The position numbers were made by a program, and so were the translations under genes. Below, piece after piece: positions 51,452 through 55,553 of a stretch of 64,000 bases of DNA. The stretch is from assembly GCA_005801425.1 (NCBI GenBank), contig SYDY01000085.1, positions 42,284 to 106,283 of the forward strand, written 5' to 3'. Source of the DNA: Bdellovibrionales bacterium. GTDB lineage: Bacteria > Myxococcota > XYA12-FULL-58-9 > SYDY01. Positions within the stretch are counted from its first letter, which is position 1, and the number at the start of each line of letters is the position of its first letter. The notes under the pieces were generated by a model. That model made no database searches, was not told the origin of the DNA, and was given only the letters and a program-made list of their open reading frames with translations.

Positions 51452-52288
51452 TTACCCCATTAGCATTTCGATGATTTCAACATCGTGTGCTTCCAATTGA
51501 AAGTCACAGACCGATAAATCTTGCGCCATGTGATCCGCGGAGGTTGTGCCTGTAAGGGGGATCATGTGGGCTTGCATGGCAAAACGAAAAACGACCTGTG
51601 CAATTGTTTGTTCCATGCGCGATGCGATCGCCTGCACGTGTGGGTGCTGCATGATTTCAGGATTTGCGGTGAGCAGTGAAAATCCTTGATAGATAATGCC
51701 ATTGTCATGACAAAATAATCGTACATCGCGATCCCAGCCCATGGATGCAAAACAGCGATTTTGCACAATTGTAGGTTTGATGTTTGCATGGTCGTAAAGC
51801 TGTTCCAACTGGTCGATGCCCACATTAGATATGCCGAGAAAACGCGTTTTATTTTCCTTGTGCAGTTTTTCCATGGCACGCCATGTTTCCCAATCGGTGT
51901 CGCTCAGACCATAGCGCATGGACGGCCCATGCAAGACATACGAATCAAGATAACTGACACCAAGATGCTCACGTGATTTTTCAAACGACTGTTCAACTTG
52001 TGTGCCAAATGGCGCGTGGGGATCATAGGGAAGGCGATGATCTTGTCCATTCACATAGGTAAATTTGGTTTGAATAAAAACTTCTTCGCGTTGCACGAGG
52101 TTTTCTTCAAAGGCCTGTTTGAGTGCTTCGCCCACACCTGCTTCAACATAATGACGCCGCTGATTTGCTGTATCGATACCGCGAAATCCAGCATTCAGCG
52201 CCATGTGCGTGAGTCGTTTCGTTTCCTGCTCTTTCCATGCGGTGCCGTAAATAAAAGGTGGAATATTCATTGTTTGTAAGTCTTTCAT
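51452..52288 (-). CDS. Aldo/keto reductase family protein
   Basis: A 278-residue NAD(P)H-dependent reductase of the (beta/alpha)8 barrel type. Visible are 'GFRGIDTANQRRHY' (catalytic Asp and Tyr region), 'FIQTKFTY', 'YLDSYVLHGP' (His-Gly-Pro) and 'FLGISNVG'. 'VFRFAMQAHMIPLTGTTSADHM' matches the cofactor phosphate site. The ATG at 52288 was chosen because it overlaps the upstream stop by four bases (ATGA); longer starts lie inside the upstream gene. Substrate unknown. It is cotranscribed with the HI0933-family flavoprotein. Confidence 0.9.
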   Translation of the reverse strand: MKDLQTMNIPPFIYGTAWKEQETKRLTHMALNAGFRGIDTANQRRHYVEAGVGEALKQAFEENLVQREEVFIQTKFTYVNGQDHRLPYDPHAPFGTQVEQSFEKSREHLGVSYLDSYVLHGPSMRYGLSDTDWETWRAMEKLHKENKTRFLGISNVGIDQLEQLYDHANIKPTIVQNRCFASMGWDRDVRLFCHDNGIIYQGFSLLTANPEIMQHPHVQAIASRMEQTIAQVVFRFAMQAHMIPLTGTTSADHMAQDLSVCDFQLEAHDVEIIEMLMG

Positions 52289-53613
52289 GATAACAATTTT
52301 CCAATGGCTGTTCCTGCAACATATCCCGTCGCCCATGCCCATTGAAAATTAAATCCGCCAATGCGGCCTTCGCAATCAAGAATTTCACCGGTCAAAAATA
52401 AACCAGGAACATGGTTGGATGCCATGGTGCGAAAATTGACTTCTTCAAGGGGAACGCCCCCTGCGGTCACTTCGGCATGATTCCATCCTCGGTCACCAGT
52501 AATGGGCAATACCAGCGCAGTGAATGCATGCACCAATTGACGACGATGCTCACGTGTGAGTTGGCCCATCTCTTTCGCCGGATCTATGTTGCAGTATTCT
52601 ATCAGATGCGTCGCCACATTTTTTGGCAAACGCTCTGAAGCACATCGCAGGATGCTGCGTTGAGGATTTCCAGCGGCTTGTTGCAACAACCATTTTTCGA
52701 CTGCGGCAAAATCTTCGCCAGGAAAAAAGTTACAACGTACTTCAGGGGCTTCACCATGGGCGCGTGCAATGATCCAAAACCGACTGGCATCCATGGCCAC
52801 GGGGCCACTGATGCCGGTATGGGTAAAGAGCATTTCACCGGTGCGTTGATCACGCCTGCTTTTTGGGCCGGCGGCTTGGTTGTTGCCTTGGGTTGCACAA
52901 ACCCACGTGGACAATTCAACAGGCAACGAAACACCCGACAAATGCGTATGAAAGAAACCGTTTTGCAGCACCAAGGCAACCAGTGCAGGATAGGTGTTTG
53001 TCACTGTATGGCCGAGTTTTTTGACCATCTCCCATCCCGCGCCATCGCTGCCTGATTTGGGCAATGACTTTCCACCTGTGGCCATCACCATAATTTTGGC
53101 GCGCATGGTTCCATGGCTATGGGTGATCACAAAATCGCCGTCATGTTTGATGTCAATAACACGATGCTGTGTGTAGAGTTGTACACCCAATTCACCCATG
53201 CGCGAGAGCAATGCATTGAGCACTGTTTTGGCATCATCGGTGACAGGAAATAATTTCCCCGTGTCTTCTTCTTTAAGCAAGACACTCATGGATGCAAACC
53301 ATGCGCGTGCATCTTCGATACCAAAAGAACGCAGAATATTGCGCACAAAATGGGATGATCCTTGGAAGTCCGATTCAGAGGCACAAAGATGGGTGACATT
53401 GCATCGGCCACCGCCCGCCACCAATATTTTTGCGCCCACAACGCGGGCACCATCTAAAATACAAATGCGTGGTTTGCGAATGCCCAGTTCCTGGGCCGTT
53501 TGTGCCGTAAAAATCGCGGTGGCCAAACCGGCTGCGCCAGAACCGATAATGACCACATCGGCGGACGAGGGTGCGTGTTGGGAAGCGGGCGACATGCAGG
53601 GTGTATAATCCAT
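52285..53613 (-). CDS. HI0933/BaiN-family NAD(P)/FAD-dependent oxidoreductase
   Basis: A 442-residue flavoprotein. It has the N-terminal dinucleotide motif 'VVIIGSGAAGLATAIF' (residues ~20-35) and the family hallmark 'LVAGGGRCNVTH'. The end block 'GLFLTGEILDCEGRIGGFNFQWAWATGYVAG' is typical of HI0933/YhiN/BaiN proteins, which reduce unsaturated ketones or related substrates. TAAAAT lies eight bases before the ATG at 53613, which suggests a leaderless mRNA. A second ATG six codons in is possible. Its upstream region carries the paired long hairpins. Confidence 0.92.
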   Translation of the reverse strand: MDYTPCMSPASQHAPSSADVVIIGSGAAGLATAIFTAQTAQELGIRKPRICILDGARVVGAKILVAGGGRCNVTHLCASESDFQGSSHFVRNILRSFGIEDARAWFASMSVLLKEEDTGKLFPVTDDAKTVLNALLSRMGELGVQLYTQHRVIDIKHDGDFVITHSHGTMRAKIMVMATGGKSLPKSGSDGAGWEMVKKLGHTVTNTYPALVALVLQNGFFHTHLSGVSLPVELSTWVCATQGNNQAAGPKSRRDQRTGEMLFTHTGISGPVAMDASRFWIIARAHGEAPEVRCNFFPGEDFAAVEKWLLQQAAGNPQRSILRCASERLPKNVATHLIEYCNIDPAKEMGQLTREHRRQLVHAFTALVLPITGDRGWNHAEVTAGGVPLEEVNFRTMASNHVPGLFLTGEILDCEGRIGGFNFQWAWATGYVAGTAIGKLLS

Positions 53614-53621
53614 AAATCATA

Positions 53622-53627
53622 ATTTTA
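53622..53627 (-). promoter_or_regulatory. -10-like TAAAAT, 8 nt before ATG of the flavoprotein
   Basis: Reading leftward from the hairpin region, TAAAAT, eight bases, then ATG at 53613. A close match to the -10 consensus at leaderless spacing. Confidence 0.5.
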
Positions 53628-53648
53628 CCATGCATCCTACTCTTTTTG

Positions 53649-53802
53649 CAGTGTCTCGCCATCCGCGTGCAGGTCCTCGCACGTCCACAAAAGCCACGTG
53701 ACGCGCATGAATTATATACTTGCGATGTTGCTTATTAAACGCGTCACAACGCTTTTGTGTCTTGTGCTCCGGTCCGTTCACACGGCCAGTGGCGAGACAC
53801 TG
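53649..53802. repeat. Long imperfect hairpin element L
   Basis: A 154-bp unit that folds on itself. The outer stem CAGTGTCTCGCCA pairs perfectly with TGGCGAGACACTG, and an inner stem with GTGACGCG and CACAAAAGC pairs with its complement. A 31-nt loop (53708-53738) is at the centre. The stem contains conserved mismatches. It is an inverted near-copy of element R. It lies in the 503-bp gene-free interval 53614-54116, where I see no convincing coding sequence. Confidence 0.85.
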
Positions 53803-53917
53803 TTTGCTGTCATTTCATACGAATCACGTTTGTCAAAACAAAGAAGATTACATCCACAAAGAGGTTTCCCCCGCGATCCAGTGGTATGGCTTGGGCAGTT
53901 TTTCGGCGTGTCCTAAG

Positions 53918-54074
53918 CAATGTTGCCTTGCCACTCGCCGTGTGAACGGACCGGAGCACAAGACACAAAAGCGTTGTGACGCGCTCAAGAAACACACATC
54001 CAAGTCAAAAAGTTATGCGCGTCACGTGGCTTTTGTGGACGTGCGAGGACCTGCACGCGGATGGCAAGGCAATG
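53918..54074. repeat. Long imperfect hairpin element R (inverted copy of L)
   Basis: Its 51-nt and 47-nt stem arms are identical to those of L, but the 31-nt loop differs. The outer stem is TTGCCTTGCCA with TGGCAAGGCAA instead of the L version, so pairing is kept by compensating changes at three positions. It is separated from L by about 115 bp with no recognised content. The remaining 42 bp to the tssC stop show nothing. Confidence 0.85.
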
Positions 54075-54116
54075 ATAACGAGATGCTATAGCTCTGACGC
54101 AGCTACCGGTCCATGG

Positions 54117-55553
54117 TCAATCCCTTTCCAGCCGTCCCACCAGAGACAAACTAAACGACGCCCCCATGTATTTCATGTGGGGTTGCACCTGAAGATGGCA
54201 ACGGTACCATCCCGGCTCATCGGCGATATCTTCCACATGCACTTGGGCTGCGCGCAAAGGCCTGCGTGCACGTACCGATGGCGTGGGATTTTCCATGTCA
54301 GCCACGTATTGCTTAAGCCACACATTGAGTTCTCGTTCGATATCGCTTCGCTCTTTCCACCGGCCTATTTCTTCCCGTTGCAAAACTTTAAGATAATGCG
54401 CAAGACGCGAAATAATAAACATATACGGCAGCTGTGCGCCAAGGCGCGCATTCATCGACGCCGCGTTGCCTTCGGGGGTATTGGCAAACATTTCGGGTTT
54501 GTGGGCCGACGTCGCCGAAAAGAAGCAGGCACTGGCCGAGTTTTGTTTGGCGGTCATGGGGATAAATCCCGCTTCGCTCAACACAAATTCACGGCGATCG
54601 GTGAGCGACCATTCAATAGGACATATAGGCTCAAGCGTTGCGCTATCAAGCACCGAAGGCACGGGAAGTTGTTCTACCGCGCCGCCCGCATGAGGACCTA
54701 TGATATGCAAGCACCATCGATACATTGAAAAAGAACGTGTCAAACATGCGGCCAAGGCCATGGAGGCAGATCCCCATAAATTTTCTTCGGGCTTTCTGAA
54801 TGACTCCCAATAGGTGATGGTCTGTTTTTTGGGGCTGTGGGGACTGTACGGTTCACGCAATCGAAAACGCGGTAAACACAAACCCACGTAGCGCGTATCA
54901 TCGTTTTCGCGAAATGCACGCCATGAGGCATATTCGGGTCCCTGAAAGAGTGCTTCGAGATCGGTGTCTGTATCAAATTCGGCAAGGTCATTTACCCCTA
55001 AAAATCGTGGATCTGCATTGGTTAAAAAAGGTGCGTGGGCCGCACGTGCCACGCGTGCACATTGCCCAAGCAAACGCATGTCGCCGTAAGAAGGTGTGAA
55101 CCCAAAAGTCGTGCACAATGCAGCAAAAGGCTCACCTCCGTAGGTTCCATAGGCATCCGCATAAACAGTACGGTACAAAAAGGATGTTTCCATGCTTCCC
55201 GAGTCGTCAAAATCCTCAGCAATTTCATTTTTGGAAACATCAAGAACAGCAACGCGAATATTTTGTGATGGATCAGATCGTTCCATGAGAAACGCAATGG
55301 ATCGCCACGCCGATTCCAAGGCTTGAAATTTGGGATGATGCAAAATTGCGTCAAGTTGTTGGCTTAAACGTGTATCAATTTCGGCAATGATCCCATCCAA
55401 CGTTTCTTTGTTGATGCAAACAGGTGTGGGTGATTGTTCAACGTGGGCGGCCATGGCGCGAAGACCATGCATGACCATGTTGGCGGCTCCGCTATCCGAC
55501 GGCAGCAAGGGTTCAAAGCAGGCCATGTGATTTTCTGTAACCACGGGGTTCAT
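54117..55553 (-). CDS. tssC: Type VI secretion sheath large subunit TssC (VipB)
   Basis: A 478-residue TssC. With TssB it forms the contractile sheath around the Hcp tube. Matching blocks are 'LDGIIAEIDTRLSQQLDAILHHPKFQALESAWRSI', 'DPSQNIRVAVLDVSKNEIAEDF', 'PFLTNADP' and 'RLAHYLKVLQREEIG'. The ATG overlaps the tssB stop by four bases (ATGA). It is the last gene of the leftward operon; hcp, tssE, tssF, tssG, clpV and vgrG do not follow in the window. Length is close to the family norm (~490). Confidence 0.97.
   Translation of the reverse strand: MNPVVTENHMACFEPLLPSDSGAANMVMHGLRAMAAHVEQSPTPVCINKETLDGIIAEIDTRLSQQLDAILHHPKFQALESAWRSIAFLMERSDPSQNIRVAVLDVSKNEIAEDFDDSGSMETSFLYRTVYADAYGTYGGEPFAALCTTFGFTPSYGDMRLLGQCARVARAAHAPFLTNADPRFLGVNDLAEFDTDTDLEALFQGPEYASWRAFRENDDTRYVGLCLPRFRLREPYSPHSPKKQTITYWESFRKPEENLWGSASMALAACLTRSFSMYRWCLHIIGPHAGGAVEQLPVPSVLDSATLEPICPIEWSLTDRREFVLSEAGFIPMTAKQNSASACFFSATSAHKPEMFANTPEGNAASMNARLGAQLPYMFIISRLAHYLKVLQREEIGRWKERSDIERELNVWLKQYVADMENPTPSVRARRPLRAAQVHVEDIADEPGWYRCHLQVQPHMKYMGASFSLSLVGRLERD

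Follow-up and report, generated by a model that had tools for sequence, protein, structure and literature searches.

A double-hairpin repeat in a Bdellovibrionales genome as a probable MITE family with two kinds of terminal repeats and conserved stems

Most MITEs are regarded as passive filler between transposase-binding ends. CIR elements of Caulobacter and Brucella consist of two independent stem-loop arms and a linker, and are intergenic and multi-copy (PMC2229807). In REPINs, the arms are conserved, the spacers are less so, and compensatory changes occur (PMC3116915). Here, we analyzed a pair of long hairpins in a 64,000-nucleotide stretch of DNA (the window) from a Bdellovibrionales bacterium. 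Judging from its sequence and that of its relatives in the same genome, we propose, with a probability of about 0.87, that the pair is one copy of a non-autonomous MITE family whose core comprises two inverted imperfect hairpins.

A sequence-only reading of the window had described two elements, L and R, as inverted copies that are each a long imperfect hairpin. Both descriptions hold. The 151-nt arms are 86% complementary (89% by BLASTN), the L:R match (BLASTN E ~4e-51) is far beyond chance, and both elements fold better than shuffled sequence. As RNA, hairpin L reaches -70.8 kcal/mol, compared with -43.8 ± 3.9 in shuffles (z = -6.85), and hairpin R folded as DNA gives z = -4.2. Exact measurement returned identical arm runs of 51 and 47 nt, as reported, and confirmed the three compensated outer pairs (columns 9/152, C-G to T-A; 6/155, T-A to C-G; 3/158, G-C to T-A). 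The two hairpins as then delimited are only the core of a larger element (Table 1), which has about 32 further copies in the genome. The loops of L and R, previously called mostly different in sequence, are both 31 nt long; across the family, loop sequences are not wholly unrelated and fall into a few classes common to several elements. In the C5 copy, the loop of the second hairpin is ~40 nt longer and contains an extra palindrome, CACCCGGCACTTCGTGCCGACCTCCCCCTCGCTACCGCG, apparently a loop insertion.

The window copy is flanked by the VipB stop codon and the start of a flavoprotein gene, with both genes on the minus strand. Only its right terminal repeat is clear and no target duplication is recognizable. 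The decayed left repeat and the unreadable duplication mark this copy as old or damaged. A promoter-like TTAATA-16-TATAAT in the L loop (53711-53738, minus strand) is directed at the flavoprotein gene; a scan places it at chance level.

Table 1. Features of the window copy and its immediate neighbors
Feature	Position	Strand	Details
Full unit	~53,624-54,096		Order: terminal repeat, hairpin, spacer, inverted hairpin, terminal repeat
Left terminal repeat, decayed	53624..53639	+	ACCAT-GCATCCTA, compared with GGCTATCGCATCTAA in intact copies; boundary approximate; by eye, from positional comparison with the intact C15 copy
Hairpin L	53649..53802	+	5' arm 53658-53708; loop 53709-53739; 3' arm 53740-53786
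Outer stem of hairpin L	53649-53657 with 53787-53802		Outermost 13 nt of each end fully complementary
Inter-hairpin spacer	53803..53917	.	Related in other copies, poorly conserved
Hairpin R, inverted copy	53918..54074	-	5' arm 54015-54065; loop 53984-54014; 3' arm 53937-53983
Outer stem of hairpin R			Three compensated differences from L
Right terminal inverted repeat	54081..54096	-	CAGAGCTATAGCATCT; 2 mismatches to the ISAs1-like consensus CAGGGCYATCGCATCT
Neighbor: VipB/TssC, T6SS sheath protein	54117..55553	-	Stop codon 21 bp from the element; context, outside the element
Neighbor: HI0933-like flavoprotein	52285..53613	-	Start ~10 bp from the element; context, outside the element

Hairpin L gave 52 BLASTN matches in its own genome (3.38 Mb, 121 contigs), down to E = 1.4e-4, and these matches, read with their flanks, resolve to ~33 dispersed loci. 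Two-hairpin copies occupy ~10 loci, with the hairpins always head-to-head and at variable spacing, and one-hairpin copies occupy another ~10. Four minimal copies consist of a basal stem of 45-90 bp alone, including one that was read directly (C80:21k). The remaining loci are fragments or contig-end copies, where the repeat broke the assembly. The units are 250-560 bp long and contain no plausible gene; they are thus short, non-coding, multi-copy, and dispersed, as is characteristic of MITEs. The one-hairpin and minimal forms look as if the sequence between direct copies of CACAAAAGC, or between those of the basal stem, had been deleted.

The family appears confined to this genome. Of the genome and its relatives, both of which the sequence-only reading had suggested searching by BLASTN, only the former yielded copies: a sequence search of 194 other genomes of the phylum found none, and a covariance-model search of 57 genomes of the phylum matched only the genome of origin. 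A gapped pattern of the inner hairpin found nothing in 84,980 prokaryote species genomes or in viral contigs, where a 20-mer likewise found nothing, and BLASTN against plasmids and phages returned no copy.

To set the element ends, we took the points at which similarity between the flanks of copies stops. Two subfamilies emerge. Type 1, which includes the window copy, ends in CAGGGCYATCGCATCTAA, an ISAs1-family terminal repeat, and type 2 ends in CTGAYSTTACGCGG; several copies have terminal inverted repeats (CAGGGCYATCGCATCT / CTGAYSTTACGCGG) at both ends. Target duplications of 7 bp are present in five of the six two-ended type-2 copies. Four are perfect (TTAGGAA at C65, ATTGTAA at C112, GTTTTAA at C87, and TTACGAA at C55), the fifth, (T)TATGTAA at C18, is offset by one base, and C7 is without a clean duplication. 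For type 1, the cleanest copy is C15, where the target duplication is 10 bp long and identical at 9/10 positions (ATAGATGCCA/ATAGATCCCA). Type-1 and type-2 ends lie side by side at the left end of C91 and at the right end of C48, and the copy at C5:21k has one end of each type, indicating that the core has been combined with both sets of ends. At C76, a lone type-1 end (CAGGGCCATTGCATCT...CTATCTCGCCA) has no hairpin behind it and could stem from the truncation of a copy or belong to a different element that shares this end.

The two kinds of terminal repeats and the target duplications are the basis for assigning these sequences to a MITE family, and its mobility is well supported. Among the possibilities raised by the sequence-only reading (a folded RNA, a hairpin recognized as single-stranded DNA, or an unknown mobile element), the mobile element is now the best supported, given ~33 dispersed copies, two terminal-repeat sets, and target duplications.

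The link to ISAs1 comes from the type-1 ends. Two Gloeothece plasmids gave a weak match to them (E = 4), which lies a short distance upstream of annotated ISAs1 transposases. Each of these Gloeothece elements carries the same 18 bases (CAGGGCAAACGCATCTAA) inverted at its other end, and CAGGGCYATCGCATCTAA agrees at 16/18 positions with ISAs1 elements read at both ends. Additionally, a genome of the same phylum contains two intact ISAs1 copies, with ends CAGGGCGAGCGCATCTAA and CAGGGCAAACGCATCTCA, each with the 9-bp duplication CCCTCTGGG. Type 1 therefore combines an ISAs1 terminal repeat (16/18 identity) with a duplication of ~10 bp at C15, within the 8-10 bp expected of an ISAs1-derived element. 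The two different ISAs1 elements of the same-phylum genome (CAGGGCGAGCGCATCTAA and CAGGGCAAACGCATCTCA) sit in one target, with CCCTCTGGG lying within TCTCCCTCTGGGAGA, as if they preferred one repeated palindrome. We found no fitting transposase in the genome that carries the hairpins: PF01609, PF13808, and NF033564 gave nothing above cut-off, in an assembly that may miss short contigs. Because ISAs1-family ends are present and no such transposase is found in this assembly, type-1 elements would be moved in trans by an ISAs1 transposase. The type-2 ends had no match among plasmids.

With respect to the core, the earlier suggestion of selection on structure is supported by the arms: within the same copies, the remaining sequence is several-fold less conserved (Fisher p from 0.007 to 4e-14). 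Arm divergence between dispersed copies is 2-8%, compared with 10-30% in the spacer, ends, and loops. The window copy and C4 differ at 4/211 arm positions and at 64/259 positions in the rest (p = 4e-14, Fisher); their divergence is 2% in the arms and 27% in the spacer. For C87 and C48, the values are 6/211 and 38/305 (p = 8e-5), and for a further pair they are 6/211 and 30/219; three more pairs behave alike, and the weakest p among the six is 0.007. The apical 20+20 nt are almost invariant, with mean pairwise divergences of 0.4% and 4.5%, compared with 39% in the loop. Stems that change so little suggest that the folded shape matters.

Covariation also extends past the two window copies. Five stem pairs are changed on both sides, including 33/124, which occurs as G-C, C-G, and A-T. 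Cells changed on both sides number 32, compared with 11.1 ± 2.1 in shuffles, and 95.7% of cells are paired, compared with 28-50% after sliding. We regard this covariation as support rather than proof, because the number of covarying pairs (5) is not above that in shuffles (4.2) and because the copies are paralogues from few lineages, with few independent events. Still, with ~33 loci and five covarying pairs, the further copies and the covariation beyond L and R on which the sequence-only reading depended are both present.

The target duplications bear on when the copies diverged. Spacers of type-2 copies differ by ~11% and their duplications are nearly perfect; under equal decay, 0 differences at 35 sites would have p = 0.017 and 1 at 42 sites p = 0.046, a weak test, as duplications are recognized by their match. 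This suggests that part of the divergence is older than insertion and that the copies that spread had retained their stems.

Several other explanations were weighed against a MITE family with a selected fold. DNA mechanics could produce paired changes without selection, if template switching in quasi-palindromes and conversion between inverted arms copied changes and homogenized the copies. This is possible, although we consider it rather unlikely. L has no mismatch in its outermost stems, the one-hairpin elements form almost perfect palindromes whose basal stems share paired changes (e.g., CGGCAT/ATGCCG at C94), as strand-switch copying would give, both hairpins of C87 have the same loop, and the direct repeats CACAAAAGC account for the deletion derivatives. 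However, all 24 aligned hairpins carry the identical CAC/AAC mismatch as an internal loop in the apical stem. It has never been corrected, which is not what a mere palindrome-perfecting process would leave. The hybrid elements C15 and C80 likewise retain two hairpins with different arms (15-18% apart), each still self-complementary, and conversion between copies would not obviously spare the loops that sit between the arms. Also doubtful is the idea that the element serves the host as a folded RNA (e.g., a 3' UTR element or a small RNA) that was dispersed by transposition and retained at many loci. The RNA fold of L (z = -6.85), the stem constraint, and the covariation would agree with it, and there are precedents of MITE transcripts processed by RNase III or RNase E (PMC10969869). 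Insertions also adjoin stop codons: by simple ORF calls, ~35/51 scored flanks face one (p = 0.011) and 10 elements lie between convergent genes, a placement that fits a transcript-end role or mere promoter avoidance. Arguing against a host RNA, the window has no Rfam match above the gathering threshold, G-U and A-C tolerances show no clear preference for one strand, copies occur in both orientations, and scans of the elements found intrinsic terminator matches not above chance and no good promoter signal.

Movement of a single-stranded hairpin by a Y1/RAYT (HUH) transposase, as in REPINs, is very improbable. Y1 transposase genes do exist in the genome, and REPINs likewise show compensatory changes and conserved arms around a spacer that is less so (PMC3116915). 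On the other hand, the four Y1 genes have no hairpin nearby, and the units are 250-560 bp long. Terminal inverted repeats with target duplications of this kind are hallmarks of DDE-type transposition, and HUH insertion gives none; the ends found here, with their 7- and 10-bp duplications, are DDE-type. We therefore rejected a REPIN on end type, target duplications, and distance from the Y1 genes. The Y1/RAYT-like matches are located on C68, C110, C118, and C1, and the genome also contains REP-like palindromes (GTCATTCCCGCG...CGCGGGAA) that are unrelated to the hairpin family. A long hairpin with a variable loop might recall a retron, a group II intron, or a diversity-generating element, a reading to which we give almost no credence: there is no Rfam match, and the genome has no reverse transcriptase (PF00078), which rules out a retron or intron encoded in this assembly. 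An integron attC site was also rejected, as inspection by eye found no GTTRRRY/RYYYAAC ends.

For the MITE family favored here, the hairpins would be retained through better persistence or spread of copies in which the fold is intact. We ranked the guesses about how. The leading one, which we hold only tentatively, is that the fold renders insertions near stop codons tolerable, with a structured transcript 3' end that may block read-through or exonucleases at convergent gene pairs. Next, and somewhat less probable, the fold may act in transposition as single-stranded or cruciform DNA; the remainder is left to other roles or DNA-level copying. More speculatively, and in our view unlikely, the double hairpin could be a structured element with a function of its own, as RNA or as single-stranded DNA. 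Two or more unrelated sets of transposon ends would have carried it, and selection would have held its stems and internal mismatch fixed and left its loops free. If so, it would be a structured passenger and not transposon filler. Because the core is more conserved than the rest and common to two sets of ends, the family offers a direct test of whether the fold of a MITE is selected, and of what any such selection would favor: transposition, harmless insertion at gene ends, or a role in the host. Its ~33 copies, with their natural one-hairpin and no-hairpin derivatives, form a ready allelic series.

Compared with known systems, the family resembles MITEs with ISAs1-family ends in its terminal repeat, its ~10-bp duplication, and its short, non-coding, intergenic nature. 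It differs from them in that its core consists of two covarying hairpins, in that no related transposase gene was found in this assembly, and in having a second subfamily in which the same core has unrelated ends and 7-bp duplications. Correia/NEMIS and ERIC elements also place stable hairpins near genes, and their transcripts are processed by RNase III or RNase E; their ends pair into one stem-loop, whereas here, as far as sequence tells, each half folds alone. The closest precedents in our comparison are CIR elements, for the two arms, and REPINs, for the conserved stems and compensatory changes. CIR elements share the two-arm, intergenic, multi-copy organization, but they are ~110 bp long, with a conserved GANTC motif and a partial likeness to MITEs, whereas the present elements have ~150 bp per arm, clear ends, and target duplications. 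REPINs and BIMEs share the conserved inverted arms, the less conserved spacer, and the compensatory changes; in contrast to these, the present elements are much longer, carry DDE-type ends with duplications, and have no link to a RAYT gene. The present family, filed as a MITE family, joins a two-arm structure, two kinds of DDE-type ends, and a measured constraint on the stems.
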